A DNA stretch of 64,000 nucleotides, taken from NCBI GenBank assembly GCA_030272155.1, contig CP126195.1, positions 1,471,001 to 1,535,000 on the forward strand, given 5' to 3'. The stretch's first letter is position 1; the number at the start of each line of letters is the position of its first letter. This DNA comes from Tetradesmus obliquus (taxonomy: Eukaryota; Chlorophyta; Chlorophyceae; Sphaeropleales; Scenedesmaceae). The notes below the pieces were generated by a model, which was not told the DNA's origin, did no database searches, and was given only the letters and a program-made list of their open reading frames with translations. Position numbers and translations under genes: made by a program. Below, in pieces: positions 88-44,915 of this stretch.

Positions 88-776
88 GCCGTCACAACAT
101 ATCTTGCATTCTGCAGGTGTGCTGGCGTATGTGATGATGCTACCGGCATCTGCTACTGCGACGGCCCCCATTTCGGCCGCGTGCCGGCTCCCCAGGGCTC
201 TTCCGCTGGCAGCCCACCGATCCGGCCCGGCCGGCTGCTGCACGGCAACTGCCAGCGGCTGAAAAGTGATGATAAAGGGCAGGCGCTGCAGTGGGGCACT
301 GGAGGTGGCATGAGCTACGATGACGTGTATGGCGCGCAGGTGGGTGGTTGGTTGCGAGAATGTTGGCTTCTGATGCGGCATGCTGCAGTAGGGTGAGTTG
401 CAGCAGTGTGCTTGTTCAGGTTCTGGCTGCATGCATTGGAGTGACGAGCGTTGGAAGCACGAGCTGGGTGCTGCTCGGCAGCTGCCAGCGCTTGAACAGC
501 GATGATAAAGGGCAGGCGCTGCGATGGGGCACCGGGGGCGGAGGCATGAGCTACAATGGCGTGTTTGGGCACAGGTGGGGCGGGGGGGAAACCGGCCGCC
601 ACACACAACCTTTGCCTTGCACGCAGTGATGCATGTCTGTATGACGCATTCTACCCTGGTGATGCTCAGCACTGCTGCTGCTGCTGCCGCGCAGGGCTGG
701 TGCACCGTAGACACGCCACGCGTCCGCTGCTCCTGCGACATGGACAGCGTGGATGGTGATTACCGGCATTATTCAC

Positions 777-815
<39 letters not shown>

Positions 816-1015
816 GCGCAGGGCTGGTGCACCGTAGACACGCCACGTGTACGCTGCTCCTGCGAGATGGATGGTGTCGACGACGACCACGATCGTTCAC
901 ACTGCTGCTTCTGCTGTTGCTGCTGCTATCGCGCAGTGCTGGTGCACCGTGGACACGCCGCGCGTGCGCTGCTCTTGCGACATGGACGGCATCGACGGCG
1001 GCCTGGACGATTCAC

Positions 1016-1053
<38 letters not shown>

Positions 1054-1657
1054 GAACAGGGCTGGTGCACTGTAGACACGCCGCGCGTGCGCTGCTCCTG
1101 CGACATGGATGGTGTCGACGGCGACCTGTGCCAGCTAGTGACAGAAACAGTCTGCCTGAATCAGTGCAGTGGCCACGGGGAGTGCCTCAGGGGCTTTTGC
1201 AGCTGCTTTGAGGGCTGGTATGGCTTAGATTGTGGCCGGCTGGCCAATGCAAGTGTGCTGGAGGCTCCGGCTACTGCTGCTGCAGGGGTTAATGGCAAGG
1301 ACGGTAGTAATGACAAGGAGGGGTTAGGTCAGAAGGATGAGGGCGAATCGAATTTGAATTCAAAAAGTGTTAGTGACAAAGAAGGAGATGAGGATGAGGA
1401 GGGTGAGGGGCGGGGTGTGAGTGAAAATGAGGCTGCGGAGATTGCAGGGGATGCGGCGTTAGAGGCAGAAGCCGCACTGTCTGCTGACTCGCCAGCTGGC
1501 GACGAGGCTGACGCAGCAGCAGCAGCAGCAGAGCAGATCGAGGCGGCGGCTGCGGCAGCAGCAGCAGCGCTGCCGGATCATTTGCGGTTGCTGTTTGAGC
1601 GGCCGTATTTGAAGAACCTCGCTGTGGATGTGTGGAGTACCACAACCTCTGCAGCCG

Positions 1658-1695
<38 letters not shown>

Positions 1696-2070
1696 TCTGC
1701 CACTGGGCCGGATGGGCAGTTTCTCCAAGAGGAGCAGCAGCAGCAGGCGCTGATCAACATTGCAGCGCACGGCGGGGCAGCAGATGCGGCAGCAGCAGAG
1801 GTGCAGGCGCCGCCAATTCCTGACATCTATTTCAAGCCTTTGCACGAGGCAGAGGAGGCAGCAGCAGCAGCAGTAGCGCAGGCGAAGAAGCGCACGACGC
1901 GGCACCTGACAGCAGCACCTGAAGACCAGCAGCAGCAGCAGCAGCAAGAAGAGGAGGAAGAGGAGCTTCGGCTGCAGCAGCTGGAAGAGCAGCTTGAGGC
2001 AGCAGTAGAATCTGCCAGGGCAGCAGCAGCAGCAGCAGCAGCAGCGACGGCTACATCACACGCAGATCAC

Positions 2071-2105
<35 letters not shown>

Positions 2106-3715
2106 CAGCCGGCAGCTGCTGCGTCACATGTGGACTGGCGGCGGCGGCCGCCGCGGCATGATCAGCATTGCACCAAAGCAGGAAACTGTCACTGCTGCTG
2201 TGCAAGCGTGGCTGTCCGCCAACACCACTGCCACCTCACCTAGCAGCAGCAGCAGCAGCAGTAAAGAGGCGTCGCTGGCTGCTGCGCTGGCGGCTGCGGG
2301 TGTGCAGATGGGCCGGCTGAGCAGTGAGGCTGATGGGGTGCTGCTGCGGCACCTGGTGGAGCAGGGGCTGGGGGAGGTGCCTGCCGGCAAGGCACGGCGG
2401 CCACGCATCTTTGTCTACGACATGCCTAGCAGGTGAGGTTGCAATCGATCACAAGTACATGTTATTGGTGTGTTTGGGGTGGTGCCGCCTGGTGGAGCGG
2501 GGGCTGGGAAAGGTGCCGACAGGGCAAGCCAGAAGACCGCGGATCTTTGTGCACGACATGCCTAGCAGGTGAGCAAGAGCAGTTGCGTGTTGATTTGTGT
2601 GGGGTGTGTAGAACCTCGTGGGGTGAGAAAGTGCCACTAAGAAGGGTGCAGCAGCCCCCCCCCCCCCCCCCCCTTCCCCCCCCCCAATCTCCATCAGTGT
2701 GGTGCTGAGCAGTGAGGCTGATGGGGTGCTGCTGCGGCACCTGGTGGAGCGGGGGCTGGGGCAGGTGCCGGCTGGGAGAGCCAGAAGGCCGCGGATCTTT
2801 GTGTATGACATGCCTAGCAGGTGAGGAAGAGCAGTTGCGTGTTGGTGTGTGTGTTGGTGTGTGGTATAGAGAGTGTGCTGCGTTGTAGGGCGCGAGGAAA
2901 TGCCGGCTGTCAAATCACGCCAGCGCTGTATGACCTTTGTTCTGGAAGGGGAATCGCAGTGCTGCTGCGGCACCTGGTGGAGCAGGGGCTGGGTGAGGTG
3001 CCGGCTGGCAAGGCACGGAGGCCACGCATCTTTGTGTACGACATGCCTAGCAGGTGAGCGTGAGACTTGGGTTGCAGGCAGTCGTGATTGAGGGTGTCTG
3101 GTGTAGCTGTTTGCCGGCCCGCTTGAGGGATTCCCGGCTGGCAAATCAGGCGAGGGAGCAGCACAGCACATTATCATTTGTTTTGTGGCTGATGGGGTGC
3201 TGCTGCGGCACCTGGTGGAGCAGGGGGTGGGTGAGGTGCCGGCTGGCAAGGCGCGGCGGCCACGCATCTTTGTCTACGACATGCCCAGCAGGTGAGGTTG
3301 CAATTGATCAAAAGTGTAAGTTCTTGGTGTTGTGTTTGGAGTGGCGGCACCTGGTGGAGCGGGGGCTGGGAAAGGTGCCGACAGGGAAAGCCAGAAGACC
3401 GCGGATCTTTGTGTACGACATGCCTAGCAGGTGAGGTTGTGATTGTGGTTTGTTTGGGGTCTTGTGTTGTTGCTGTTTGGTGGAGCGGGGGCTGGGGCAG
3501 GTGCCAGCAAGGCGCGGCGACCATCTTCGTGTATGACATGCTCAGCAGGTGAGCATGAGCAGCTACCACCGCAAAAGTGCAGAGGCATGCATTGCGCTGC
3601 ATGGCATCCAATAGAGCCAAGATTCTGTTGTGCTGTAGCTGCAGGTTGGTCAGGCCGCCAGCTGCATCACCTGCCAAATGATTGCACATGCGACGTGCTC
3701 AACGGCTTCAGTTGA

Positions 3716-3771
<56 letters not shown>

Positions 3772-6708
3772 AGGTTTGTGGGCCGCCTGCTGCAGTACCG
3801 GCCCAGCAAGCAGACCTGCACCTGGCGCATCTTCAGCAAGTCAAACTTCTCGCTGTACACCACCACGGAGAGTGAGTCACAACACCCACCAGTAGCAGCA
3901 GGAGCCAGTGCTGTTGAGCAGAGCCGTCGACTGTGTTGTTGGCGTGACAGGGCATGTTGTTTTGACTACTGCATACCAAACAACCACCCACCACCCCTGC
4001 TCTTCCACAGGCGCCAGCGCGCGCAGCAACCCACTTGAGACACTTAAACTGGCAGCCACCCACGCCCGCCCACATTTTTGCGACTGTGTTGACCTTGGTG
4101 TAACACCAATGGTGTCGTGCTGATGAGGTGCTGCTGGTACTGATGCTTGTGCGCGGCTGCTGTGCTTTGTCTGCAGGTTCCAGTGCGTGGCGCTATCCCC
4201 TGGAGAGCCACCTGCACGAGCTCTTGCTACAGAGCCCTCACAGAACGCTAGATCCAGAAGAGGCCGACTTCTTCTACGTGCCTGTGTATGCCTCCTGCTT
4301 CATGGAAGCAGTGGCGGGCTGGGCTGACGCACCCTGGTGGGGCGTGCAGAGGTGAGGCGGATGTGCAATGCACGGAGCAACTGTTGACCCTGACATCTAT
4401 AGTTTGTACTGTGCAAGCAGCGTGGCGTGTGCAGCACAAGAACTCATGAGACATTAATACAGCACAATCACGCAGGTGGCAACAACTCCTGGAGGCTACG
4501 CTGCTCTGCTTGCCAGGGTGTGCACTTCATCAGCAGCAAAACATGCCGCCCACTCGCCTCTGCAGCATATCACCATGCGGTGTCTACCGCAACGCGCCTG
4601 CAATCCCTGAAGTTGTGATTCCTTCCGTCGCTCTGTTGTTTGTCCGAATGTTGCAGCCGCTCCATTGTGAAGCAAGGTGTGGCAACATACCTGCACGCAC
4701 TGCATCAACTGTATACATCATGTTACACATCATGCCAAAGTTTGTTTACTGATCAAGCTGATCATACAGCGTCAAACACATCCACATATCACCGGATGTC
4801 CCTGCCCTCTTGCACTGTAGCCGCTCCATGGTCAAACAAGGCGTCGCCATGTACCTCGACGCGCTGAGCTGGGTTCGAACCGCGTACCCCTACTGGAACG
4901 CCACGCGCGGCGCCAACCACATCTGGCTCTTCTCGCATGACGAGGGCGCCTGCTGGGCCCCGCAGGAGATCTACAACGCCTCCATTATCTTGAGCCAGTG
5001 GGGGCGGCTGCCTGCGGCGGCTGGCGGTGATGACAAGAGGGATGGTGGCGGCGGGATGGTCAACAGCAGCACCAGCAGGTGAGATACCTTGCTTCAGCTT
5101 TTCTGTGTGATGCTGTAGTGTATGTGAACAAGCTTTTCTCTTTGTGGTATAGCTTTATTTTGGCTGAAGTTGTGGTGAGGGCGCCTGCTGGGCCCCCCAG
5201 GAGATCTACAACGCCTCCATCATCTTGAGCCAGTGGGGGCGGCTGCCTGCGGTGGCTGGGAAAGGCGGCAGCATGGTCAACAGCAGCACCAGCAGGTGAG
5301 GTTTGATCTCAGCTTGCTTCCCCTTGTTGCAGCTGCTGTCAAGTATGTGGCGGCTGTGGTTAGCGGTGCCATGGCTGGCTGCGCCGTGGTCAACAACAGC
5401 ATCTGACAAAATTGTCCCCTCCTGCAGGTGGGAGTATAACTTCAACAAGGGCGATGACAAGGACGACCCATCCATGCCGTCCTTTGCATCAAAGCCCCCA
5501 AGCGCTGCCATACCAAAAGCAAAGGCATTATATTGCTTTCTTCGTAATTCTTCTCCTGCAGGTGGGAGTACAACTTCAACAAGGGCGATGACAAGGACAA
5601 CCCAGCCATGCCATCTGGCTCAACAACATTCCACCTCTGCATATTGTGTTGTAACTTCTGCTACTGCAGGTGGGAGTACAACTTCAACAAGGGCGATGAC
5701 AAGGATGATCCAGCCATGCCTCGCGGCTACCAAGCAGCCATCGGCGCCCACCCCTGCTACACGCCAGGCAAGGACCTCGTGCTGCCTGCCTTCAAGCCCC
5801 CGCCGCGCTTCCACGCGAGCCCCTTTATGGGCGGCGACGCCCGCAGCCGCGACATCCTCGCGCTGCTGCGCACTGACTTAGGCGACGCGCGCCCGCCCGC
5901 CTTCAGCGGCGGGCTGCGGCAGAGCCTCGCGAAGCTCGCAAAGGACGGCCGCTGGAAGGAGCAGCACCGCATATGGATTGGCAGCGAGGCGGAGCTGGAG
6001 GGCGACGCGTCGGTGCTGTTGTCGCGCAGCCGGTTTTGCCTCGTTGTGCCTCGCGACGGCTGGCCGGGGCTGTTTGAGGACGCTGTGCTGCACGGCTGCA
6101 TCCCCGTCGTGGTTTCCGGCGGCGACATGGGCGCGATCGCGCAGCCGTTCAGTGCGGTGCTGCGGCTGTCGGCCGCCGTGCTGAAGGTGCGGCCCGAGGA
6201 GCTGCCGAACCTGCCGAGTATCCTCGGCGGTATAAGCGAGGCGCAGGAGGCAGGGTTTAGGAGGAGTATTGCCAAGTGGTGGCAGCGCATGGCGTGGCTG
6301 AGTCACCCGATGGTGCGGGAGCAGGCTGCTGCATTGGTGGCAGAGAACATGCGCAGTAGCCCGCGCATTCAGGATGAGCTGGCGCAGCAGCAGCTACAGC
6401 AGCAGCATGCGCTGAGTCATATGGGGCGGCGACGCAAAGCAGCCACGGCAGCAGCAACAGCAGCAGCAGCGCAGACTGATGCAGAGGAGGCGAGCAAGGA
6501 AGACAGAGAGCATGCGGCTAAGGTTTCCTCATTGCTGGAAATGCGGGTGTGGCAGCCGCAGGCAGCAGTTGATGATGCGTTCACCACACTCATGCAGTGG
6601 CTGCAGCATAAGATGCTGCACCCTTACAACCCTGCGAGTGCGAGGAGCAAGCAGCATGCTCGGCTGAGCAATGGGCCGGCCGTGACGACGGAGCGGCGGC
6701 AGAAGTAG
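1..6708 (+). CDS. EGF-domain exostosin-like glycosyltransferase (GT47), 5' end outside window
   Basis: Likely a Golgi type II glycosyltransferase acting on cell-wall or secreted glycans; donor and acceptor cannot be told. The exons I can join are 117-339, 1060-2432, 3774-3871, 4177-4351, 4821-5078 and 5670-6708, all GT-AG and in phase, with the stop at 6706-6708. Cys-rich EGF-like segments come first (CSGHGECLRGFCSC near 1165-1209). A long acidic Ala/Gln-rich linker follows. The exostosin domain begins at RPRIFVYDMPSR (about 2398-2432) and continues through ADFFYVPVYASCF, HIWLFSHDEGACW and the family hallmark RSRFCLVVPRDGWPGLFEDA plus GCIPVVVSGG near 6027-6120. Any signal anchor lies upstream of the window. 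The introns hold many copies of the adjoining exon ends, listed separately. Family assignment is firm; substrate is unknown. Confidence 0.9.
467..577 (+). repeat. Ghost copy of the 3' end of GT47 exon 117-339
   Basis: This intronic segment repeats the last ~100 nt of the upstream exon. The peptide reads NSDDKGQALRWGTGGGGMSY against KSDDKGQALQWGTGGGMSY in the exon, and it ends in its own CAG/GTGGGG donor. It cannot be used as an exon without carrying intron sequence. Confidence 0.85.
662..1059 (+). repeat. Three tandem CTG-tract/acceptor/exon-start modules before GT47 exon 1060-2432
   Basis: Three ghosts of the exon start (WCTVDTPRVRCSCDMDG) begin at 695, 822 and 937; the real exon start is at 1060. 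The period is about 120 nt. Most copies are immediately preceded by a CTG run and a CAG acceptor (CGCGCAG in the ghosts, GAACAG at the real exon). Ghost peptides read WCTVDTPRVRCSCDMDS, WCTVDTPRVRCSCEMDG and WCTVDTPRVRCSCDMDG. Confidence 0.88.
2484..3552 (+). repeat. Six tandem ghosts of the 3' end of GT47 exon 1060-2432
   Basis: After the real donor at 2432/2433 the intron holds six further copies of the exon's last ~90 nt, encoding GEVPAGKARRPRIFVYDMPS. They lie near 2484-2570, 2703-2821, 2957-3054, 3187-3293, 3343-3431 and 3474-3549. Each ends in an AG/GTGAG donor. Identity is high, and the last copy has lost several bases. With the exon copy this makes seven. Confidence 0.9.
2655..2685 (+). 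repeat. Poly-C tract in GT47 intron
   Basis: Nineteen consecutive C, then TT, then ten C. It lies between two exon-end ghosts, so the minus strand carries long G runs. It is unlike the triplet repeats that dominate the window. Confidence 0.95.
3717..3773 (+). repeat. (CTG)n tract forming the acceptor of GT47 exon 3774
   Basis: About 18 uninterrupted CTG units run directly into the CAG acceptor of exon 3774-3871. There is no ordinary C/T tract here, so the triplet run occupies the polypyrimidine-tract position. Confidence 0.9.
4657..4700 (+). repeat. Ghost of the 5' end of GT47 exon 4821-5078
   Basis: A TTGCAG acceptor is followed by a copy of the exon start, reading SIVKQGVATYLHAL against SMVKQGVAMYLDAL in the real exon, 164 nt further on. 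Confidence 0.8.
5179..5296 (+). repeat. Ghost of the 3' end of GT47 exon 4821-5078
   Basis: This copies the last ~120 nt of the exon (QEIYNASIILSQWGRLPA and MVNSSTSR), with an internal deletion, and ends in its own AG/GTGAGG donor. Confidence 0.88.
5428..5669 (+). repeat. Two ghosts of the 5' end of GT47 exon 5670-6708
   Basis: Copies beginning at 5428 and 5562 each follow a CTGCAG acceptor and encode WEYNFNKGDDKDDP or WEYNFNKGDDKDNP. The copy at 5670 is the real exon start and runs on into the rest of the catalytic domain. Confidence 0.88.
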
Positions 6709-7536: not shown

Positions 7537-8284
7537 ATGAGGGCATTTCCATGTCTGCTGCTAGCCGGGCCCGGGGCTGCCGTGCACGCTCAGGAACAGA
7601 TCAATGATGAGCAGCAAACCACAAAAGTTGCTATAGTCTCGCTAGCCGCGGAGCTGGCACACATCGCCAGCAGACTAGCTGGAGCAGCAGCACACAACGG
7701 CAGCTTAGGAGGTCACATCAGGCATCGGAGGCCCCATCCAGCCGCTGCTGTACCGCAAACACAGGAAGCTGCCGTGCAGAACATCAACAAGGGGCTGGTG
7801 CAGTCTGTGCCTGTGGAGTTCTAAGGGCACAACTTGACTGTTGTTGCGCTGTCACATGAGTGAGTGCAGTGCTGGAGCTTGCAGGAGCATGCTAGCTTGG
7901 TCAAACAAGCATAATTTTTCTAAATACATAGTCTACTAGCTTGGGCTTGTGCCCATGCAACTGCTGTGTGGCGCCTGCAGCGCCAACAGGTCTGCTGCCT
8001 ATGTGTAACTGATGTCGGGTAAAAAGCAGTACATGTGATCACCAGCAGCAAGTTTTGCTGCGTCAGCTGTCATTGCAGGGGCAGTTATGGCACTGCTTCC
8101 TGATGTGATGCTGCAGCAGCTTGCAGAAACAGCAGCTGCTTGCAGCTGCTTTGCTGCATCCTCTGCCAACACATACAAATTTGCAGCCACCCTTGCAATA
8201 GGGCAGCTGTGGAGTCAGTCCTTGTCCTGCAAGCACCTTTGACCAACCCCCATAATGAACTGTGCTCTTAGCTGCGTTGCAGTG

Positions 8285-8515
8285 TGTTGCGGCGAGTATG
8301 TGGGCTTCCACACTTTGAGCACGCGCTACAGCAAGCAACATCTTTGTCAACCGCCATGCATGCTGTCTTGCGCTGCTTAGCTTTGCACTGCGCTGCAGCG
8401 AGTACGTGGGCTTCGACACGTTGAGCACGCGCATGCAACAAGCAACATCTTTGTCAACCGCCATGCATGCTGTCTTGCGCTGCTTTGCAATACACTGCGC
8501 TGCACTGTGCTGCAG
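8285..8515 (+). repeat. Two ghosts of the 5' end of FkbM copy 1 exon 2
   Basis: Before the real exon start at 8516, two decayed copies of the exon start (EYVGF.TLSTR, against EYVGSHILRTR) lie near 8290-8325 and 8400-8433. Shared upstream intron sequence travels with them (CCGCCATGCATGCTGTCTTG). Confidence 0.75.
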
Positions 8516-8699
8516 CGAGTACGTGGGCTCTCACATCCTGAGGACGCGCACGCCCTGGCAGGCCGACCTGCTGGGCCCGCTCATGGACAAAGTGAGGCCA
8601 GGCAGCGTGGTGGTGGACGCAGGTGAGGCAACGTATGTGGCTGCATCATGCGACACCTAGACGGGCTAGCAGCAGCAGCGGTGGCAGCGTAGGCAGTGG

Positions 8700-8856
8700 G
8701 TGCATAGCGGCCTTGATGCTGCGAGGCCGGGCAGCATGGTCGTGGGTGCAGGTGAGCCTGGCACTGAGCGCACCTGCTGTTGCTGTGAGTTTGAGCGCAG
8801 CTGCTGGGGCAGCTGGTGGACAAAGTAAGGCCGGGCAGCGTGGTGGTGGACGCAGG
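8700..8856 (+). repeat. Ghosts of the 3' end of FkbM copy 1 exon 2
   Basis: Two copies of the exon end (VRPGSVVVDAG) with donor-like GCAG/GTGAG and GCAG/GTGGG ends follow the real donor at 8622/8623. One encodes ARPGSMVVGAG; the other (LVDKVRPGSVVVDAG) is nearly intact. Confidence 0.8.
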
Positions 8857-9589
8857 TGGGCCCGCGCGCAACACATAACAGCTCTCCAATACTACCCTTC
8901 AGGTGCGTCGTGTCGGGACTTCAGGCGCTTTGCTGTATCAACTCGCTAGGCATCCTCTATTTCTGGTGGTGGCCTTGCATTGCACTTTGCAAATGTCTTT
9001 GCTTGACACCAGATGTAACAAGCATTCTTATGCTTACACCTCAACAGCTGCTTGTTGTAAAAGGCGCGTGGAGTACAGCCTGTATTTCAGCCCAAGGCTG
9101 CCCACAGCATGTTCCCAGCCAGCGTGTGAGGCCAGGCAGCAACGCTAGCAACGGCAGCAGCAGAAGTGGGGGTGGTGTTAGAGCTGCTGCAAGCATGGCA
9201 AAAGCAGGCATGCAGCGTAGTCGAGGCCTGGCATGGGCTAGTAGCAGCAGCAGCAGCAGCAGCAGCAGCTGCCACAGAGCAAGTGTGTGCAAGCGCGCTA
9301 GTCATGCCACTTTTGAAGTGCTATAGCTGGCGCCTGGTAGCTCAATGCCCTGCGTATCACAGATGATGATTTCGACGCCCATTCCGATCGAGAGTGCTCA
9401 GGGTGATTACATGCTGCATGCAAACTCGCTGTCAGGAGTGGCGTGGCTGCTGTACCCCTTGCTGCTGCTGCTGCTGCTGCCACTGCTGCTGTTGCTGCTG
9501 GTTTTACAGCAGGGGCTGCTGCTTCTGGGAGGCAGCTTGGGAGTCTGCGGCTTTTGCGGCTGATGATGCTGTGCGCGCCACTCAACACA

Positions 9590-9634
<45 letters not shown>

Positions 9635-9977
9635 TGCCAACATGGGTGACTTTGCCATCTTCCTGGCAGCTGCAACAGGCCCCACTGGAGTAGTTTATGC
9701 CTTTGAGCCGCAGGCGCGCATGTTTCAGCTTGTCTGCACCAACATGATCATCAAGTGAGCGGCTGCGCTGGCAGCTGATGGGTTGCAGTGTAGGTGTCTG
9801 CATATCAGCACCAGAGCAGCTGCCCCATATGCCTGGCAATAGTTTGCACCAACAGCATTGGCAAGGAAGCAGGCTGGCAGCTGGTTTGAGCAGAGTGCCT
9901 AGGTGCTTGCGGCAGCTGCTGGCAGTCTCATGGTCCGAGCTGTTCAAAGAGCCTCCAAGGCCGCAGCTTGATCAGCC

Positions 9978-10025
<48 letters not shown>
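9978..10025 (+). repeat. (CTG)n tract in FkbM copy 1 intron 3
   Basis: Roughly 15 CTG units, here not followed by a CAG acceptor. It is an exception to the acceptor-linked pattern and may be left over from a lost ghost exon. Confidence 0.85.
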
Positions 10026-10029
<4 letters not shown>

Positions 10030-10354
10030 TGTGAAGCTCCGTTCGTGTTGTGTAGCAGGCCTGAGTATAACGTGTGTGGAAGCGTAATGTAAAAGAAGGT
10101 TAGTAAACCAATGATAAGCCTGAGGCCCAGCGATAGCTGGTAAAGGCCGCCTACGTTGCAAGGCACGCGTAGTTCTAACAAGGCGGTACAATGTCACATT
10201 GACTGCCGCGTGCCTCACACGTAGGTGTGAGTCACAAATGTTCAATCAATCATCCACTACATGGATAGTAACAGCTCCTGTTACATGTTGATGCAGCGGG
10301 CTGCTACACGACCTGCATCTGCGCTACTTGGTTCGTACATGCCATATTCAGTCA

Positions 10355-10400
<46 letters not shown>

Positions 10401-11433
10401 AATGATGGCGATGCAGCGGGCTGCTGCACATGGTGCCGATGCGCAACGCCCTCAGCTACGAGCCTGGAGAACTGCACATGAGCGACAAGGTCACAGATGG
10501 CTCTGCAGGCGGCATGGAGTACAAGGACGGATTTGAACGACAAAGTGACCATCAACTATGGTGGGTTATGGTTTAGGGTCAATACTAGGATCAGGGTCAT
10601 TACTAGTCATAACCCATGATGTTGCGAAGCTTTGCATGCAAGTGATGTGTGGCGTGTTTGAGCTGCTGTCAAGTTTGCAGTGCTTGCTGTAGGCTAGGCA
10701 GCAGGAGCATGTTGCATGGGCCTCTCCACTACTGCTCTTGCAACTCTTTTTGCTGCTGCTGCTGCTGCTGCTGCAGGTGGTATGCGTCTGGGCCTGGGTG
10801 GCGAGACGGTGCCAGCAATCACACTGGACAGCATGAACCTCACGGATGTGTCCGTCATCAAGGTGGGTTGCAGCCGCATGTGGGCTTAGATGGTTGCGCG
10901 CATGTGTCGGTCAGCAGCAGCAGATGCATGCAGCCGGGCCTTTGGCGCATGCTGCGAGCATGGGGGCAGGGCATCTGGTGGTCCAGTGATTTGCCGCTAT
11001 GCTGCTGCTTCAGGGCTTGCTTGCAAATTGAGTGCCCGTGCTTCGGCTAAATCAGCAGACCTATGTTGTTATGCAGGATAGTGCTACTAGATAATGTCAC
11101 TGTCGTCGCTGCTTCAGCGGCGCATCATAACGCAGCGTTATTTGTTGCCTGTGCTGCTCCTGCAGGTGGACATCCAGGGAGCGGAAAAGCTGATGTTCTA
11201 CGGCGCCCAGGAAACCATCAAGTGAGCAGCAGGCACTTGACACCTATTGCATCATTTGTGCCCTCATCTGCCGCATTCTTACATCATTCTAGTCCTCAGC
11301 ATGTTGGCAATCCCATGTTGTTCATTCTGCTGCGGCGGCTACATGTGCCCCCTGCTGCCTGTGCTTCTCCTGCCCGCTTGCACGTGTGCCGCTTGACTAC
11401 TGCTTGCTTGTGATTGCTGCCTTGTATTACAAA

Positions 11434-11466
11434 AGGCGCAGCCTGCCAGTGGTGGCGTACGAGTGA
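11434..11466 (+). repeat. Ghost of the 5' end of FkbM copy 1 exon 7
   Basis: Reads RRSLPVVAYE followed by a stop, against RNLPVVAYE at the start of the real last exon at 11575. Confidence 0.75.
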
Positions 11467-11875
11467 CTTTTAGACATGCATGTCATACAGCGCGTGTAAC
11501 GCCTGAACAACAGCATCTAAACATACTTCATCCGGTCCCCTCCCTGCCTGCCTGCCTGCCTCACCGTGTTACAGGCGCAACCTGCCAGTGGTCGCGTACG
11601 AGTCAGTAGAAGCCGGCATGGCCACAGCAGTCGACGCAGAGCTGCAGCTGCCGCAGCATGTCAAAGACTTCAACGTGGACACATTCCTGAAGAGCCTCGG
11701 CTACACGACGCAGGTCTTCGGCAGCGACAACATCGGCACGCCGCCCGCCAATGCAACGGCCGGCGGCCGGCGCAGGATGCTTCAGGGCGGCAGCCGCCGG
11801 CGCATCCTGGCTGTGCCGCCCAATCGCAGGCGGCAGTGACCGAGTGCAGCGGCCTAGTACAATACCAACAGATGG

Positions 11876-15231: not shown

Positions 15232-15272
<41 letters not shown>

Positions 15273-16872: not shown

Positions 16873-16938
<66 letters not shown>

Positions 16939-27354: not shown

Positions 27355-27376
27355 AGCAGCAGCTGCAGCAGCACCC

Positions 27377-27408
<32 letters not shown>

Positions 27409-27583: not shown

Positions 27584-27649
<66 letters not shown>

Positions 27650-28631: not shown

Positions 28632-28666
<35 letters not shown>

Positions 28667-29903: not shown

Positions 29904-29942
<39 letters not shown>

Positions 29943-31120: not shown

Positions 31121-31163
<43 letters not shown>

Positions 31164-33441: not shown

Positions 33442-33475
<34 letters not shown>

Positions 33476-33545
33476 GCCATACTTCCCTACTGTGCATGGT
33501 AGCTGCAGCGCTGCAGGCGGCAGTAAGCAGCAAATGCTGCAGGAT

Positions 33546-33585
<40 letters not shown>

Positions 33586-34903
33586 CTGCAGTGACTCCAG
33601 CGCAGGCCTGGCAGCAGCTGCTGGGCAGTCAAGAGAGCAAGCAGCTCCTCAAGGCGCTACCATTCCTGCAGCAGAAGCAGCAGCAGCAGCAGCAGGCCGT
33701 TGACACCACATCATCAGCAGCAGCATTTGAAGATGCTGTGTTTGGCTGGCAAGGCCTTGCTGGCTCGCCCCAGCAGCAGCAGCAGCACAGGCAGGAGCTG
33801 GCTTCAGTGCTGCTGGCGCTGCATTCCGTGTACGAGGACTGTAAGCTCTACAAGCTGCGCCGGCAGCTGCTGCAGCTGCTGGGCCCGCTGCTGTGGCTGC
33901 TGTCAAAACTGCTTGGTGCTGCTGCATACCAGGAGCACTATGAAAGAGATGCTTCGCCCTCTGGACTGCAAGCTGCAGCACAGCAGCTGCTGGAAGCTGC
34001 TGCCGGCCTTGCTGGCAAGCCTGCTGCTGCTGCTGCTGCTGCTGCTACTGCAGCGGCCTCCCTGCAGTGGCACTCGCAGAAGGGTCAGCAGCAGCAGCAG
34101 CAGTTGGATGGTGCTGGCAGCAGCAGCAGCAGCAGCGTTGAGCTTATGCAGCTGCAGCAGCCGCCAGGAGACATTCTGCGCTGCTTGTCCCCGCTGCTGT
34201 CAGGCGCCGCTGAACAGCAGCAGCAGCAGCGTTATGTTCCATGGCTGGCCAGTAAAGGCAGCAGCTGCGTGCTGCGCTCATGTCAGCTGCTGGAGGCGTA
34301 CCGCCTGCTGTCAAGCTGCACACGCGCCTGCGCAGCAGCAGTGGCAGCAGCAGTGAGCAGCGGCCACCAGCAGCAGCAGCAGCAGGGGAGTTTGCTGCTG
34401 CAGCCGCTTGCCGGCTTTGGCCTCTTAGGCAGCAGCAGCAGCAGCAGCACACAAAACCAGTCCCCGGGCGGCGTTGGAGCTAAACAGTCCGGCAACAGTG
34501 CAGCAGATCCAAACAATGCATTGGCAGCGGAGCTGGAGCACCTGCTGCTGCTGGGCAGTCACCGGCTGGTGCTGCTGCTGGTGCAGCAGGGCTGGGATGT
34601 GCTGGCGCTGGATGGCCTGCCGCTGGGAGTTGCGCTGCCACTCAAAGAGGCTGCTGCAAGGTGCAGGACCAACCCGCCCGCAGGTGAGGGATTGCGCTTT
34701 GTCAACTTTTTGTGAACTGCTGATGAACCGCTGAAAGGGCACTAAACTCAGCGGTAATTGTCAAGTGTGTTGAGGCAGTCTGTACCATCAAAATAGCACG
34801 GAGCTCCAATGATGTTCGCTGTCATTTGTTGCAGGTTGGCCCATCATGGCGTATGCGCTCATTGGCAGGGAGGATGTGGCAGCAACACTGGCCAGCAACG
34901 ACT

Positions 34904-34934
<31 letters not shown>

Positions 34935-35157
34935 TAGCTGCTGCGCTAGCGATGCCATTCCCAGTGGCACTGCTGCTGCTGCTACCGCCTCAGCAGCTGC
35001 AGCTACTAGTCATGCAGCGCCCCACCGGCAGCAGCAGCAGCAGCAGCACGTGCTGCTGCCGTATGAGCAGCGGCTGCTGCTGCCCAGCAGCTGCAGCCTG
35101 ACCGGGCAGCAGCTCAGCTCAAGGCCCCTCAGTGGAGCCTCACAGCAAGCCGGCAAA

Positions 35158-35194
<37 letters not shown>

Positions 35195-35704
35195 CAAGGA
35201 GAGGGGGTAGGGGCCTGAGGGGTTCTGCTGCTGCGGCGGCTGCCGCTGCTGCTGCTGGCAGCAGCGGCGCATTTGGCGCCGGCATTGGTCAGAGCAGCAA
35301 TGCTGGGGTGACTGGAGAGCTTGGGCTGCCAATCGACGGCATGGAAGGCGTAGCAGGTGCGTGAAAGGCACTTCTGTGCTGCTGCTGAGTTTGATTAGTA
35401 TGCTTCGCCCATCAAGTGCCTTCTTAGTTGACATCATCGTGGGGGTGACAGGGGAGCTGGGGCTACCAATTGATGGAAGGCGTGGCGGGTGGGTGGATGG
35501 TGCTGCTGCTGCTGCTGCTGCTGCTGCGTTTGTTTGGTATGATTGGCCCAGCACTTGCTGCTTTGTATTGCGTGATATCATAGCTTAGGTGATTGATGGG
35601 GTCTTCCAGCTCATGGACGTGGACTGGGCTGAGCTGGGGCTGCCAATTGACGGAATGGAAGGCGTGGCAGGTGAGGCGCGAAGTGCTGCTGCTGCTGCTG
35701 CTGG

Positions 35705-35737
<33 letters not shown>

Positions 35738-36193
35738 AGTTTGAACCATGATGGTCAGCTTCGTTCTGAGTTCCTGCCCAAACGTTGGCCACACCTGGAA
35801 CTTGCATGCTTTTGCATCACGCGCGGGAAAGAAGCAACTGTGCTTCTACAACAGAATACAGCGCCGTGGTTCAAGTCTCTTTCGCTGTGTGTTTGCCTTG
35901 CTGTGTTCATTACCTTGCAGGCGGCATCTCCTCGCTGCGCTTTGGCCGTGATGAGCGGCTGGCCGAGGTGCAGAGCCTGCTGGGTACAAACATGCCTGTG
36001 GTGCTCACGGTGAGTGGGGTGGCAGCAGCAGTTGGCGTTAACAAGGGAGCAGCAGCAGCAGCAGTTGGCATAAAAGATGTAGCAGCAGCAGCAGCAGCAG
36101 CAGTGTGGTGCTGAGGTGCAGAGCCTGCTGGAAACAAACATGCCCGTGGTGCTCACGGTGAGTGGGGTGGCAGCAGCAGTTGGCGTTAACAAG

Positions 36194-36224
<31 letters not shown>

Positions 36225-39200
36225 TTGGCATTAAAGATGTAGCAGCAGCAGCAGCAGCAGTGTGGTGCTGAGGTGCAGAGCCTGCTGGAAACAAACATGC
36301 CCGTGGTGCTCACGATGAGTGGGACAGCAGCAGCTGTTGGCAATAAAGATGTGGCAGCAGCAGCAGCAGCAGCAGTGGCAGTGGCAGCAGTGTGGTGCTG
36401 AGGTGCAGAGCCTGCTGGGAACAAACATGCCCGTGGTGCTCACGATGAGTGGGGCGGCATGCACGTTCCACCCTGGCATCGCTTGTCAAATATTGCTGAG
36501 CTATCATTGTGCTGCACCAACCGGACAATTCCTTTGTGATTTGTGTAAATCAAGGAGTATAGTCTCAACCGATGCTGTGCGACTGATCCATCAATCCGTG
36601 ATGATCGTGATGACCCGTGATGTGCAGGTCCCTGGGCCAGACAGTGACCCGGATGTTCCCGCCAAGCAGCAAGCCGCCCTGCTCTCCCCCTGCACTGCGC
36701 ACCATGGCGCTGCCACTGGGCCGTGGTGCCTTCACCCTTTCTGATTCTGCTCTGTTTCTGCCGCATATGACCATACTCCCCATCTTTCTGCAGGTCCCTG
36801 GGCCAGACAGTGACCCGGATCTTCCTGCCTAACAACAGGCAGCGTTATTATCATTGTAACACCTGGACCCTTGTTGTGCTGCGGCACGTTTCCGAACTTT
36901 TTACATCTTTCTGCCTGTTTGCTTGCCCGCAGGTCCCTGGGCCAGACAGTGACCTGGATCCTTCCGTCAAACATCAAGCCGCCCTGCTCTCCTCCGCGCT
37001 GCGCACCATGGCGCTATTACAACACCTGGACCCTTGTTGTGTTGTGGCTCGTTTCTAAAGCCTTTACACATTTTTCTGCCTGTCCCCTTGCCTGCAGGTC
37101 CCAGGGCCAGACAGCAACCCAGACCTTCCCGCCAAGCAGCAAGCCGCTCTGCTCTCCTCCGCGCTGCGCACGATGGCGCTGCCACTACTCAACATGTGAT
37201 CCCTGCTCTGCTTGTGCCATGCATCCACATTGTTGTCCCCTGCAGGTCCCTGGGCCAGACAGTGATCCAGATCTTCCCGCCAAGCAGCAGGCAGCATTGC
37301 TCTCCTCCGCACTGCGCACCATGGCGCTGCCACTGGGCCGTGGTGCCTTCACGCTTGGGCTGTCTCAGCCGCTGCCTGGGGAGCAGCTGGGGGTGCCGCT
37401 GCTGTGCCTGAGTGGGGTGGTGCCTGGGCCGGGGCCTGAGGGGGGAGCGGGCGGCAGGGTGCTGGTGAACCTGGACCTCACCAATGCACAGCCCGCACCA
37501 GGTAGGCAAAATTGCAAGTGTGTGTTTGGTGTGTCTATTCCCGAAGGGTGTGTTTGGTGTGTCTGATTCGGAAGGATGTGTTTGGTGTGTTTAAGTTTTC
37601 ACGGCAGTGCAAGAGTGCAGGTGGCTGTTGAGGCGTGTCTGCTAACGCTAGCACAGCCGCTGCCTTGGGAGCACTTTATGCTGACAGTTGCATACAACTT
37701 CACGCAAGGTCGCGGCTGTGGACATGACGGCCTCATGTAGAGTTCTGAGTGCCAGGAGCACCTGAGGTAATCTTGTTTTTACAGCAGATGCCTTCTTCCA
37801 ACCTGTGCTTACCTCACAGGCGGCGGCGCGGCAGCTGACGTCACGGCCTGGTGTGAGTTTCACAACGGAGTGGCGGCTGGCATCAAGATCGCCCCTCGCA
37901 GGCGACACCGGCTCAAGCAGCAGCAGCAGCAGCAAGCTGGCGTGGCCGCACCCCAGCACGGATCCCAAACCCCCAACCCTAACTCTCCTGAAGGGGCTAC
38001 TCCTAGCCTTGCTGGATCAGTGGCTGGTGCTGCTGCTGAAGGGGCTGTCAGGCCTGAGCCTGGCAGCAGCAGCAGCAGCAGTGCAGACAGCTTGGCAGAT
38101 GCCTGGCTGCCGCACAGCAAGCCGGTGGTGCCTAATTATGCACATGCCGGGGTGCTGCTGGCGCTGGGGCTGACGGGGCACCTGGACCGGCTCTCATGGA
38201 CTGACCTGTACAGGTGAGCCGTGGCAGCAGCGGCAGCAGCACGCAGTGCACAGACGTTGTACAAAGAGCACGCAAGTACTGTTGCTCTGCCACTTGCATG
38301 ACTGGAGTTTTAAATAGGCTTTACTTCGGTGTTGTAGCTCCATTTGTTTTAGATTTGCCGCACTCCACTCCCATTGTGTTATGGCCGCCTGCATTCCCTG
38401 CAGGTACCTGTCTGATCAGCACGAGCCCACCACCATCGGCGTGCTGCTGGGCATGGCGGCCTGCAGCAGAGGGGCGGCAGACACCACCGTGGCGCGCATG
38501 CTGCTGCTGCACCTGCCCGCACGCCACCCGAGCTGCTTCCCGGAAATAGAGCTGTCGCCGCACGTGCAGGTGATGAGCTGTTTGTTTATGGTCTGATGGC
38601 TGTAGGTGTGTGTTTGTGTATGTGCATTGTGGTGCGTTGTGGTGCAGGTACGGTGGCTGACTATGACAGCTTTCTGCAAGGATACGACTTTGCTTGTGCT
38701 GTGTGCTGTGTTGTGTGGCGCAGCATGCTGTGTTCTGCAGCGACTGGATGATGTCGCACAAGTCTGTGGCACGCCACTCCAGCTGCTGCCGGAGATAGAG
38801 CTATTGATAGAAATGGCATTCTGTGCTCCTCAACTCTCCGTCACTAAAGTGACTCGTTTGTGTTCATCCCCTTTCTGTCTGCAGGCCGCCTCGCTGCTGG
38901 GCCTAGGCCTGCTCTACCAGGGCTCCTGCCACCGGCTCAACACCACCCCACCACCCTAAAAAAACATTAACATCAATTCGTTACCACAAGTGTCAACGTA
39001 GCGCTTCAATGCAACTTTATTGTGTTTTGCGCTCCTGGACACTCCAGCAAATTCGCTTTTTGCGGCTTCTTTTTGTTTTTTTCTGTTGCAGGCCGCCTCG
39101 CTGCTGGGCCTGGGCCTGCTGTACCAGGGCTCCTGCCACCGGCTCATGTCAGAGATCATGCTCGAGGAGATTACCAGAACCCCGGGCGTAAACCCCAGCC

Positions 39201-40041
39201 TCACTGGCGGCGGCGGCGGTTTAGGCGCCGAGGCCGGCGGCGGTTCAGGGCTTGGCGCGAGCCTGTCATCGCTGATGTGTGTGATGCAGGACAGGGAGGG
39301 GTATGCGCTTGCGGCTGGCTTTGGGCTGGGGCTGATCTGCCTTGGGCAGGGCAGGAGTGCGCCTGGGCTGGCTGATTTACACCTGGAGGATAAGCTGAGG
39401 TGCGCAGGATGCATTGGTTGTGTGATAGGCTACTGAAGATAGATGCTGACATTTGCAAAGTGTCAGTTGGAGTGTGCGGGTCTGGCTGCGCTGGCGGATC
39501 TGCATTTGGAAAATGAAACTGAGGTGTGGGTATGTTGGAGTGTGCAATAGTCACACGGGGCTGGGGCTGATCTGCCTGGGGCAGGGCAGGAGCGCGCCTG
39601 GGCTGGCTGATTTGCACCTGGAAGATACGCTGAGGTGCGGGTTATCTGTGATTCTTATGTGAAAAAAATGCAAAGAAAAGACATGGCAAAGTGCACAGTA
39701 AGTTTGCCAGTGTGTCTGGCTGGCTGATCTACGCTTGGAGGATAAGCTGATGCGCAGGTGTGTTTATGTGATGAAGATAGTGTTAGGGTCTGCGAGTGAC
39801 AGGACAGATTGTAGTGGCATTGTGCAAGTGTGAATGCTGTTAGCTCCTTTGGTCTACGCGTCTGCGAACACATTGGCGCAGCATTGAGCAATGCTGTCAT
39901 GCCACTACATGCAGCATGGCCTCTTCCAAGCCTCACCAAAAGCATAACGCTACCTTGCAGCCCTACAGTCTCACTTGCAGCAGTTCAATACGCCAGCTAT
40001 TGAACTCTGCACACTGCATCAGCCAGCAAGACAAAGTCACC

Positions 40042-40075
<34 letters not shown>

Positions 40076-41054
40076 TCAATACTACTGCTGCCGCTGCTGC
40101 TGCCACCACTGCCACAACCTCGATGCGGTCACCCTCGCAGGGCCCTCATGGATGGCTCCAGCCAGCCCCACAGCCTCCCAAGCACATTTTCAATCAGTCA
40201 CTCAGATCCAATGGCTAAAGCTGCCTCATTCGTGCTGCCACTGCTGCTGCTGCTGCCATTACTGCCACAACCGTAATATTTGCACTCTCGCAGGGCCCTC
40301 ATGGATGGCTCCAGCCAGCCCCACAGCCTCTCCCGCAGACCCCAGCAGCCACCCAAAGCCAAAGCAGCAGCAGCAGCAGCAGGCCCCAACAGTGCTGCTG
40401 CTGCTGCTGCCGGCCTGTATGGCAGCAGCAGGCCTGGCAGTGTGCTAGATGCTGTGCTTGGGACAGGCGTGGTGGGCTGGGATGCTGCTGCTGGTGGGCT
40501 GGGGGAGGACCCCAGTGGGCTGGGCAGCGGCGCTGCTGCTGCTGCTGGTGGTGGTGGTGGTGGGGTGAAGCTGGATGCAGACCTGATGCAGCAGTACGGC
40601 ATCTCACAGGTGAGAGTGGTGGGGGCGTGCGTGCTGCTGTACATTGTGTCCCGCTGCTTGCTGCCGTGTGGCGGACTTGTGGTTTGCGGACATGCTGCCA
40701 GGTGTGCTGCTGCTGCATGCATTGTGGGCAGCTCCTGCTGTTGACTCGGCCAAAGCTGGCGCTGCTGTGTTGCTGCTGCTGTTGCTGCTTGCTGCTGCTG
40801 CATGTGGTGCTTGAAGGTCAAGGCGGCAAAACCGCTGTCACTGGCCCTGCTGCTGGCCCTGCTGCCATGGCGCTGCTGCTGCTGCTGCTGCTGTACGTGG
40901 TGCTTGAAGGTCGGGGGCGGCAACACTTCTGTCACGGGCCCTGCTGCTGATGGTGCTATCCCACTGCTGCTGCTGCTGCTGCTGCTGCTGCAGGTGGTGC
41001 TTGAAGGTCAGGGCGGCAACACTGCTGTCACTGGCCCTGCTGCTGATGGTGCTA

Positions 41055-41093
<39 letters not shown>

Positions 41094-41156
41094 AGGTGGT
41101 GCTTGAGGGTCAGGGCGGCAACACTGCTGTCACTGGCCCTGCTGCTGATGGCGTTA

Positions 41157-41195
<39 letters not shown>

Positions 41196-44100
41196 TGCTG
41201 CAGGTGGTGCTTGAAGGTCAGGGCGGCAACACCGCTGTCACTGGCCCTGCTGCTGCCATGGCGCTGATGATGATGTACCTGAAGACGGGTGACGCTGACG
41301 TGGCAGCACGCTTCAAGGTGAAGTTCAGTGTACGCCGGCTGTGAAGTTCACGGCAGCCGGCTGTGAAGTTGAAAGCGATGTTGAGGAAGCTTGGCTCTGG
41401 CCACAGGCGGCTGCAACTGCATGTGGCTTAAAAGATGCACCTGCAACTGATGGGCCAAGCGAGCCGCACAGTATCACCTTGAAAACTCAGCCTTGCCTGT
41501 GAATCGTACAACTCGGACCGTGTGCCACTCCAATGCATGCAGGTGCCTGACAGTGTGTATGCACTGGACCACATGCGGCCCTCACTGGTGCTGCTGATGG
41601 TGCTGGGCAAGGCCCTGGTGCTGTGGGAGGGCATCAGCGCAACACAGGTGGGCAAGAACAACTTGTTGGTGCTGCTTGATCGCGTTGGTTACATAACATG
41701 TCAGTGACAAATGGTCATAACATGTTTAAGAGAAGAGGGTGCAGCTGCTGATGGTGCTGGGCAAGGCCCTGGTGCTGTGGGAGGGCATCAGCGCAACACA
41801 GGTGGGCTGATCTGTTACTGTTGCTGGACCTTGGTACATAACACGTTAGTGACAACTGTTTGTAACATGTTTGAGGGAAAGGGTGCAGCTGCTGATGGTG
41901 CTGGGCAGGGCCCTGGTGCTGTGGGAGGGCATCAGCGCAACACAGGTGAGTTGATCTGTTACTATCTGCTGTTGGCAAATCATGTAAAGCGGATCATGCT
42001 GGTGATGATTGGCATTTTGTTGTCACATGTGGGAAAAGGCTGAGTGTGGCTGATAGTCGGCAAGATGCTGACTGCAACGAGCCGACGCATGGCAATTGTG
42101 GTCTTGCCATCATCTCGTGCACATGCCTACTGCATGCAAGTGTCTGACAACGTGTTATGTATGCTGCTGCAGGAGTGGATCAGTGCACAGCTGCCGCCGC
42201 TGCTAGACCAGCCTCTGCTCAAGATACTGGATGCAATGCTGGCACCTCCAGCAGCAGCAGCAGCAGCAGCAGCAACACCCGGCAGCACACCTGCAGCAGC
42301 AGCAGCAGCACGCAGCGGCAGCGGCAGCCTCAGGGGCCCTGCAGGGCATGCCGCATCAGCAGTAGATTGGGGCGCCGTGGGCCTAGCGCATGTGCACGCA
42401 CTAGCTGGCGCCTGCTTTGCGATCGGATTGCGCTTTGCAGGAACTTGCAATGCAGGCGCAGAGGCTCTGCTGCGGCACCACCTACTGCAGCTGCTGCACG
42501 CAAAGCGGCGGGCTCCCGGCGGGCCCAACGAGCAGTCTGTGGCGCCTGCGGCGGCTGCTGCTGCTGCCGCTGCTGCAGCAAATGGGGCCGGCGTTGGCAT
42601 TGCGGTGGCTCCTGCTGCTGGGTCAGTTGGGCAGCTGGATAAGGGTGTGATTGAGAACTGCATCAGTGTGGTGCTGCTGGCGCTGGCGCTGGTCATGGCA
42701 GGGAGCGGCCACCTGCCTACCTTTCGGCTGATTCAGGTGCGCTGCTGCTGCTGGCTGCATGGCTGCATGGTTGTACTTGTAGCAACAGCGGTGCCGCACT
42801 TGCAGGAGACAAGTGCATGGCCCGTATCACCCTCCAGCATTGTAACAAACAAACACATGCCAATACGTCAATAACAGCAATCACAACGATTGCAATGCTG
42901 CCCGCAGGTGCTCAGCCGCCGCAGCGCTGGGCCGCTGCGCGCGACAGGCGCTGAGGGCCAGACGCCAGGCGGCATTGCTGCACTGCTGTCGGGCCCTGGG
43001 GTGGGCTGCGGCCAGGTGAGACACCTGATGACAGCATTTGATCAATCATGAAACCATGAATATGTGGCAGCTGCCCCGTCTGCAGTATGTGTGAGTGTCA
43101 TTCGCATGTGTTGGCAGCGGCCAGGTGAGCCACTTGATCAATGATTTGATGTTGAACCATGATGATAGGCCAGCGGTCCTGTCTGCAGCCTGTGTGATTG
43201 TCATTAGCATGTGTCGTTCTGTAGCTAGTCAGCTGTGGCTGTTGCAATTGCCAGCAGCTTGCTGCACGAAGGATGTGCAGCATTGTGTGCGTGACTGGCA
43301 GGGACCGCCATCAAACTTGCAGCAGCATTGCACACACCCGGCATTGTCCATTCTATGTTCAACAGCGCAAGCCATCATGTCACCCTGCGCACAAGAGCTG
43401 TGTGCTCTCTTCTGACCTTCACCTATCTATCTCTCGTGCTAACACCACCACTATAACTGCAATCAGCTGCAAACAAACTCTAGATACATGTCAGCTAATG
43501 ATGGAATGCCAACAGGCGTTGCTTACAAAAGACTGTTATAATTGTTTGCAGGTGAGCTACGGCCACCACCTCGCCACCAGCCTGGCTGCTGGCGTGCTGG
43601 CCTTGATAACCTCTGCACACCTATATCTCCGCTGCTGACACCGACACAACAACTGCAAACAAACATAATATTTTGCATCAAATGCAGGTCAGCTACGGCC
43701 ACCACCTTGCCACCAGCCTGGCTGCAGGGCTGCTGTTCCTGAGTGCGGGGCGCGCCAGCATCAGCAGCAGCAACGAGGCGGTCGCGGCGCTGCTGATCGC
43801 ACTGTACCCGGTGTGGCCTAATAGCCCCACAGACCAGCGCTGTCACCTGCAGGTGAGATGGGTGGATGATGACATGCATTTGTATGTGGAGGTTTGCTAT
43901 GCTTTTTGTGCAGTAAGGTGTTTTTTTGTTGTGTTGCGCGCCAGCAGCAGCAGCAGCAACGAGGCAGTTGCGGCGCTGCTGATCGTGCTGTACCCAGTGT
44001 GGCCTAATAGCCCCACAGACCAGCGCTGTCACCTGCAGGTGAGATTTGCGATCAAGTTGGAATCATTTGGGTGTGAAGACTTGCTGTGCTTGTTGCGCAT

Positions 44101-44915
44101 TGAGTTGGTCTAAAGTGTGGTGGCTCAACGGCCCAAAAGACCAGCGCTGCCACCTGCAGCTGCAAGTGGCGAGGCTTTTTGTATACATTTATGGTTTGCT
44201 GTGCTTGTTGTACAGTTGGGTGTGTGGTTGCGGTGCACCCGGTGTGGCCTAACAGCCCCACAGACCAGCGCTGCCACCTGCAGGTGAGAATGGTGATGGT
44301 TTATACGGACGGGAAGGTTTGATGTGCTTGTTGTGCAGTTGGGTGTGCTGATCGCACTGTATCCGGTGTGGCCTCATAGCCCCACAGACCAGCGCTGCCA
44401 CCTGCAGGTGAGATCTACATTTATGATGTGTTCTGATCGTTTGGGATGGGGTTCGAAGAATTGCTGTGCTTGTTGTGCAGTAAGCTGTTGCGGTGGTGTG
44501 CGACGCGGCGGCGTCACAGCGCCGGTGACCAGTGCTGCCACCTGCGGTAAGAATGGTGCGGAATGAATTCAATCATGCACGTGTTTGCAACAGTAAGTCC
44601 ATCTGGGAGTAAGAGTGTCTTTGACTATTCTGCGGTGCGTGGGTGTGGGTTGTTTGGATCAGTGACTCAGACCTTTGCCGGCTGTGTGTACGCGTGCCTG
44701 CAGGCGTTCCGGCATCTGTACGTGCTAGCTGCCGAGCCGCGCTGCCTGCAAGCAGTAGACGTGCATAGCAGGCAGCAGGTGGTGGTGCCTCTGCAGATCA
44801 CCGCACACAAGCACGGCATGGTGGGACCCCAGCCAGCAGCAGCAGCAGCAGCAGCAGCGCAGGCAAAGGCGGCCCACGCCAGCCAGCAGCATGGGGTGCA
44901 GAGCTTGATGGCTGC

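Follow-up and report, generated by a model that had tools for sequence, protein, structure and literature searches.

We analyzed 64,000 nucleotides (nt) of Tetradesmus obliquus DNA (the window; positions 1471001-1535000 of contig CP126195.1, or G000:C5, in an assembly of 104.66 Mb and 17 contigs), in which two genes, GT47 (exostosin) and APC1, carry copies of their own exon ends inside the adjoining introns. All features described here lie on the + strand and are numbered from the first base of the window. The GT47 gene (117..6708), identified by a match to PF03016, had six hand-checked exons (117-339, 1060-2432, 3774-3871, 4177-4351, 4821-5078, and 5670-6708), the first of which has an uncertain left limit and may reach further left than 117. 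The last 18 exons of APC1 (28666..46617) were hand-checked from their open frame and Pfam matches, with single exons matching PF20518 and PF18122 above the cut-off and PF21282 below it; these exons occupied 28666-28791, 29401-29604, 29789-30225, 31068-31415, 32599-34683, 34835-35356, 35921-36009, 37246-37501, 37820-38213, 38404-38569, 39092-39399, 40294-40609, 41204-41317, 41543-41647, 42173-42736, 42908-43015, 43688-43852, and 44704-46617. As the original prediction had proposed, joining exons at the outermost copy of each junction kept the frame open, giving 1055 codons with no internal stop for GT47 and a single frame of 2740 codons for APC1.

To count copies, we compared the last or first 60 nt of the neighboring exons with each intron and took the same probes on other introns as the null, at the 99% level. 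In GT47 and APC1, exon ends recurred in the adjoining intron at 11/22 donors and 10/22 acceptors, and the 15 of 22 curated introns with a match had a median length of 672 nt, compared to 190 nt for the seven without one. Reverse probes gave no matches in these two genes (0/22, 0/19, 0/22, and 0/17). Over all introns, where the gene finder used outside the two curated genes sometimes calls intronic copies exons, they matched in 9/185, 7/170, 12/176, and 4/134 cases, compared to the ~1% expected. Of 50 copies anchored by sequence away from the junction, two were dropped as spurious (5408 and 38818). The remaining 48 fell at 19 junctions in 14 of the 22 curated introns, with one to six per junction as originally claimed, and a 20th junction had a diverged copy outside this set. 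Each copy lay within an intron with its own junction rather than abutting a real splice site.

In GT47, one copy of the exon end at 339 with its donor was found at 463..574 (identity 0.84; its GT, judged by eye, is intact but was aligned with a one-base shift), and three copies of the exon start at 1060 with its acceptor followed at 695-744, 822-888, and 938-1005 (identity 0.90-0.94). The exon end at 2432 and its donor recurred six times (2475-2568, 2704-2820, 2959-3053, 3184-3291, 3344-3430, and 3478-3548), with identities of 0.82-0.95 and GT intact in all six. The diverged copy at the 20th junction, the exon start at 4821, was at 4657..4702. The exon end at 5078 with its donor was copied once, without 18 nt (5194..5295; identity 0.95), and the exon start at 5670 with its acceptor twice (5428-5478 and 5562-5612). 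A long C run lies at ~2650-2687, within the six-copy intron.

In APC1, there were three copies of the exon end at 28791 with its donor (28880..29313), five of the exon start at 31068 with its acceptor in a 136-nt array (30401..30968), three of the exon end at 31415 (31575..32111), two of them with GC for GT, and one of the exon start at 32599 (32301..32324). The exon end at 35356 had a copy at 35622-35670 and a damaged one, outside the 48, at 35442-35486. Three copies of the exon end at 36009 (36110..36444; two with AT for GT) and four of the exon start at 37246 with its acceptor (36628..37186) shared one intron. The exon start at 39092 was copied once (38885..38939; identity 0.96, intron side unrelated), the exon end at 39399 twice (39558..39750; GT lost in one), the exon start at 40294 once (40141..40177; 37/37 aligned bases identical), the exon start at 41204 four times (40804..41153; AG lost in two), the exon end at 41647 twice (41744..41945; 58/58 and 57/58 identical), and the exon start at 43688 once (43552..43599). 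The exon end at 43852 had four copies (43936-44038, 44120-44159, 44234-44283, and 44346-44407; one without GT) and a fifth, decayed one at 44527-44552 outside the 48. The extent originally given, 467..44545, is thus close to what we found, from a first copy at 463 to the decayed last copy at about 44527-44545. At real junctions and in some copies, the acceptor region consisted of CTG runs ending in CAG (1018-1059, 3717-3773, and 41160-41203), and a 16/32-nt array (32322-32601) ended immediately before an APC1 exon acceptor.

Successive copies in the curated introns were spaced 93 to 314 nt apart, the duplicated parts were 24-116 nt long, and the copies differed from the real exon by 0-18%. They accounted for 3071 of 13157 intron bases (23%), and intron length rose with copy number (Spearman 0.92), bearing out the proposal that such copies make up a large share of intron length. 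The claim that the copies carry their splice sites held for the 40 of 48 in which GT or AG was intact (one counted by eye) and failed for the eight in which it was broken. Copies of exon 3' ends did always lie after the real donor, as had been stated, although this rule follows largely from how the real copy is defined, namely as the one contiguous with the remainder of the exon. All 94 repeat pairs in the window were direct and none was inverted. Tandem Repeats Finder reported arrays with periods of 102-239 across several copy-bearing introns, and more diverged arrays were visible in self-comparison only. The units, tens to hundreds of nt long and arranged head to tail, have the form of local tandem repeats (minisatellites); they also cross an exon-intron border, with copies nearby and in the same orientation, which together with the in-frame outermost copies fits the originally proposed tandem duplication across splice junctions. 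Because repeats pose difficulties for assembly, an artefact of assembly was considered. We rejected it as extremely improbable because the copies diverge from the real exon by 0-18%, and the pattern recurred in separate loci, as described next.

Outside GT47 and APC1, gene models came from a self-trained gene finder whose training set was the same 264 kb that it annotated. As an outside check, all eight proteins submitted to Pfam, which were chosen rather than drawn at random (five from sampled loci, three from the window), had a match, and the five from sampled loci belonged to the GCS2, UBA, FMN oxidoreductase, RPE65-type, and AAA families. In the other predicted genes of the window, exon ends matched the adjoining intron at 4/27 donors and 4/28 acceptors (99% null); six of these eight matches were in two FkbM-methyltransferase genes, and two were in a 35-nt array at ~49.7-50.9 kb. 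The FkbM matches, which had also been part of the original prediction and hold for predicted models only, were in six of 13 predicted introns (7 + 6 in the two genes), at 7990-8515, 8623-9139, 11222-11574, 15433-15693, 16034-16391, and 16538-16940. The 35-nt unit is repeated 8.3 times at 49659-49947, upstream of a predicted gene.

We then compared introns with their flanking exons in 20 loci of 10 kb. These loci were not random draws but were set at fixed, round positions (1 Mb on every contig and, on three contigs, also 3 Mb). Exon ends matched at 31/158 donors and 19/155 acceptors (99% null), and 43 of 170 predicted introns carried copies; these introns had a median length of 426 nt, compared to 261 nt for those without copies. 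By a score cut, copies were found in 44 introns and 14 of the 20 loci. Local direct repeats covered 38499 of 200000 bases (19%), occurred in 18 of the 20 loci, and included intergenic DNA, with 171 direct and seven inverted repeat pairs. Copied exon ends inside introns are a genome-wide pattern that extends beyond the window. At 3822-4615 of one sampled locus (L010), six copies of an exon end of a glutamate-cysteine ligase (GCS2) gene are spaced ~151 nt apart; some of them have TT for GT, and one was called an exon by the gene finder.

A special targeting of splice junctions by duplication was not supported. In the sampled loci, a local direct repeat crossed 91 of 358 predicted junctions (25%), a rate near the 21% for random intron positions and the 17% for intergenic positions and above the 14% for predicted-exon positions, and we therefore rejected the idea of a junction hotspot. 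In GT47 and APC1, repeats covered 44% of exon bases within 0-49 nt of an intron, 22% at 50-99 nt, 4% at 100-199 nt, and 5% at 200 nt or more, and covered 33%, 36%, and 68% of intron bases at 0-49, 50-99, and 100 nt or more. The clearest tandem arrays within exons had periods of 120, 36, 21, and 18, all divisible by three (32843-33110, 1921-1989, 51883-51935, and 28145-28181), as expected if only in-frame duplications survive there; low-complexity exon stretches showed other periods too. The most economical interpretation is that duplication happens everywhere and that its products probably persist where splicing removes them.

On these grounds, we consider it likely that frequent local tandem duplication, with splicing as a filter, has lengthened introns by leaving decaying copies of junctions in them. 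A duplication within an exon would break the protein and be removed by selection. One that is wholly intronic or that crosses a single splice junction would be lost from the transcript provided that splicing uses the outermost junction, which is still attached to the remainder of the exon. Introns would thereby collect duplications and grow, and each junction-crossing event would leave an exon end and its splice site inside the intron. There the copy, being unread, should be almost free of selection as it decays, in contrast to the constrained real exon. What the DNA shows directly is the set of copies and open frames, the occurrence of repeats in 18 of 20 loci, the near-absence of partner splice sites, and a contrast in substitutions between copies and real exons. 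Which junction is spliced, that selection acts against exonic duplications, and that the arrays arose by tandem duplication are inferred from these observations.

Several results suggest that the copies are dead and apparently not read as exons. First, using the inner junction would be in frame and free of stops for only 6/48 copies and would break the frame in the other 42, with retained lengths modulo three of 17, 19, and 12. Second, partner splice sites were nearly absent: a plausible donor lay near the far border in 1/22 acceptor-type copies, and acceptors near the 28 donor-type copies fell in the three phases 9, 6, and 6 times, with no clear phase preference. Tandemly duplicated alternative exons would each have an acceptor as well as a donor in compatible phase, which the copies generally did not. 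Third, real-copy codon pairs contained three stops (strict alignment), and 52/59 gaps were not multiples of three (lenient alignments). Intact GT or AG in 40/48 copies, low ratios of non-synonymous to synonymous divergence (dN/dS; see below), and in-phase acceptors near some donor-type copies (e.g., 28885 and 29257) would suit functional alternative exons or alternative splice sites. With partner sites nearly absent and the frame mostly broken, we rejected cassette or alternative exons, and the idea seems improbable. Stronger preservation of the inner splice sites was also considered and rejected. Dinucleotides were broken in 8/48 copies, or ~8% per base, close to the divergence at codon positions 1 and 2 and less than half that at position 3.

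That the inner copies are free to decay, as originally claimed, was borne out in that their decay looks close to neutral. In 12 arrays with at least two copies, changes private to copies were 33 synonymous and 47 non-synonymous, compared to nine and three for changes private to the real exon (Fisher p 0.034). The copies diverged from the real exon by 0.101, 0.095, and 0.190 at codon positions 1, 2, and 3 (50 pairs, including the two later dropped), the 1:1:2 ratio that should arise if one partner changes freely and the other does so only at silent sites. Both results point to almost neutral decay of the copies alongside a constrained real exon. Some of our results weigh against this account. 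The 33 synonymous changes on copy branches are a mild excess over the ~24 of 80 expected under neutrality (kappa 3, P 0.02). In addition, dN/dS was 0.19 (0.12-0.34) for real-copy pairs and 0.24 (0.19-0.49) for copy-copy pairs in strict alignments, and 0.33 (0.19-0.61) and 0.26 (0.19-0.49) in lenient ones, below the value of at least 0.5 that would be expected, without correction for transition bias, if the copies were dead and the exon constrained. Because the real-copy value shifts from 0.19 to 0.33 with the strictness of alignment, our conclusion rests on the contrast between branches. Finally, repeats covered predicted exons in the sampled loci about as much as intergenic DNA (17.5% and 17.6%), which a filter against exonic duplication would not lead one to expect; the figure for predicted exons is raised by hits to exon ends and by copies that the gene finder took for exons.

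One feature that duplication with free decay, the original proposal, does not explain is a sharp end of similarity at the splice site. The match on the intron side extended 9 nt or less in 22/47 curated copies and 31/64 copies from the sampled loci, compared to 15/120 pseudo-junctions in long introns (12%) and 2/122 in intergenic DNA. In simulations of tandem duplication and neutral decay at the observed exon divergence, only 0-7% of copies had such an edge, and the observed share would require introns to change three to five times faster than the copies. Even among copies with exon identity of at least 0.95, the edge was sharp in 10/30 cases and in 0/66 controls. Plain tandem duplication and decay thus does not predict the sharp edge found in nearly half of the copies. 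Individual cases were clear. The last of the six GCS2 copies is identical to the exon over 57/57 bases and has an unrelated flank, the 55-nt match of one copy at locus L015 ends with the final base of the exon, a copy at L023 is identical over 39/39 bases and has a different acceptor tract, and the copy ending at 41801 is identical over 58/58 exon bases and adjoins altered intron.

Evidence that the intronic flank was duplicated along with the exon end was mixed. Over 120 nt, flank similarity was found in 25/50 real-copy pairs (partly via neighboring copies) and in 18/41 with copies masked, but it was absent beyond 9 nt in the 22/47 sharp-edged curated copies. Matching blocks were present in 39/93 flank pairs, 31 of which had them in register to within 10 nt. 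Elsewhere the match resumed 15-90 nt off, and 20 of the 39 matching pairs had a block offset by more than 15 nt in at least one copy, so part of the edge effect reflects local scrambling beside the junction. The cause of the edge may be exchange confined to the exon-like parts, or selection may favor duplications whose junction-proximal sequence is altered. These explanations, taken up below, are attempts at the sharp edge and could hold together with duplication filtered by splicing. More generally, it is conceivable, with somewhat less than an even chance in our judgment, that the splice site itself bounds the exon ends and their intronic copies, either because copying or later exchange stops there or because selection through splice-site competition keeps only duplications that change the flank. 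If so, splicing would influence, at a resolution of a few bases, the DNA duplications that are retained in a genome, and exon ends would keep accumulating in introns.

If gene conversion or unequal exchange continued between the exon-like parts and the real exon, then the latter, held by selection, would serve as the master while the intron between copies drifted, and similarity would end at the splice site. The persistence of sharp edges at exon identities of at least 0.95 and the copy ending at 41801 are what such exchange would produce. By contrast, no mosaic pattern was seen (a test on the longest run of identity gave a combined p of 0.93 over 39 copies, with 1/39 below 0.05), and exon identity correlated weakly with flank length (0.28, p 0.002), as decay predicts. 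We regard exchange as a tentative addition.

Alternatively, new filler DNA might be placed between the copies when a duplication forms, and competition between splice sites would select mainly those duplications with differing flanks so that the outer site wins. In the sharp-edged examples, the spacers are unlike the flank of the other copy, and all five spacers that were searched occur nowhere else in the genome outside their own array. The real site also outscored the inner one by 31 to 10 (16 ties) for sharp-edged copies and 31 to 11 (19 ties) for the others, with a wider score gap in the sharp-edged set (medians 7.2 versus 5.5 and 7.1 versus 6.7). These comparisons are biased, however, because the gene finder favors strong sites, and among copies with intact dinucleotides the real site was stronger at 17/46 donors (p 0.06) and 29/51 acceptors (p 0.09), neither of which is significant. 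On this result we set aside the idea that real and inner splice sites have diverged adaptively, and we think the combination of filler and competition rather unlikely.

The copy-spacer-exon form of the sharp-edged cases is also what introners, mobile elements that carry introns, would leave if inserted beside exon ends with long target-site duplications. Such elements should form a dispersed family. Instead, 5/5 searched spacers were unique in the 104.7-Mb assembly outside their own array (by a search that skips very common words), and the duplicated parts are 24-116 nt long. We therefore rejected introners and other mobile elements, which are very improbable here.

Among known systems, the nearest in kind is tandem genomic duplication across a splice junction, which we have not seen described at the present scale. 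In a potato RdRp gene, a single duplication spanning an intron-exon border gave rise to a new intron and a new exon, for which there are RNA reads, and a further 83-bp tandem duplication is reported in the first intron (PMC4974935). As in our genes, the duplication crosses the border and the splicing signals are inherited from the parent junction. Unlike that single event, the copies here number in the dozens, lie in existing introns at many loci, and are seemingly skipped. The AGGT model of intron gain, as outlined in its source, likewise combines tandem duplication and splicing and duplicates a splice motif, placing a new intron between two exonic AGGT copies (PMC3443670); by contrast, existing introns lengthen here and the unit includes an existing junction, and we saw no intron made up of a single exonic unit with an AGGT motif at each end. 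For Drosophila, the part of the study drawn on here attributes 5/31 near intron pairs to duplication inside the reading frame (PMC2891723), which shares with our case a coding tandem duplication with one copy lost from the message and differs in that our arrays lie inside introns. CST-guided Pol alpha-primase at DNA breaks is a candidate source of short tandem duplications; the portion of that work considered here describes small duplications and does not mention splice junctions or introns (PMC8355091). Introns of Chlamydomonas and its relatives are longer than those of other compact genomes (medians 198-343 bp), and the excerpted report leaves the driver open and does not mention exon copies inside introns (PMC8226300), so that a link to the present genome is our own suggestion. 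Searches of an open-access library turned up no account of a genome in which arrays of exon ends are widespread in introns, and the words "intron" and "tandem" were not found in the available text of a comparative paper on Sphaeropleales (PMC12571836).

Junction-crossing tandem duplication, known from single cases, thus appears frequent enough in this genome to supply much of the length of many introns. It offers a testable source for long introns in compact genomes, and the history of its growth is legible in each intron. The sharp edge, if confirmed with RNA and strain data, would tie splicing to the fate or the making of DNA duplications. For annotation, the pattern is a warning, because gene finders take some copies for exons, as seen here.

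The window contains further genes. The two predicted FkbM-methyltransferase genes (7955..17131; gene finder and PF05050, not hand-checked) lie side by side at 7955-12094 and 14852-17131, and part of a kinesin gene (PF00225) is also present. The 3'-terminal region of the first FkbM gene seems to be duplicated (11627-11837 and 11882-12092).

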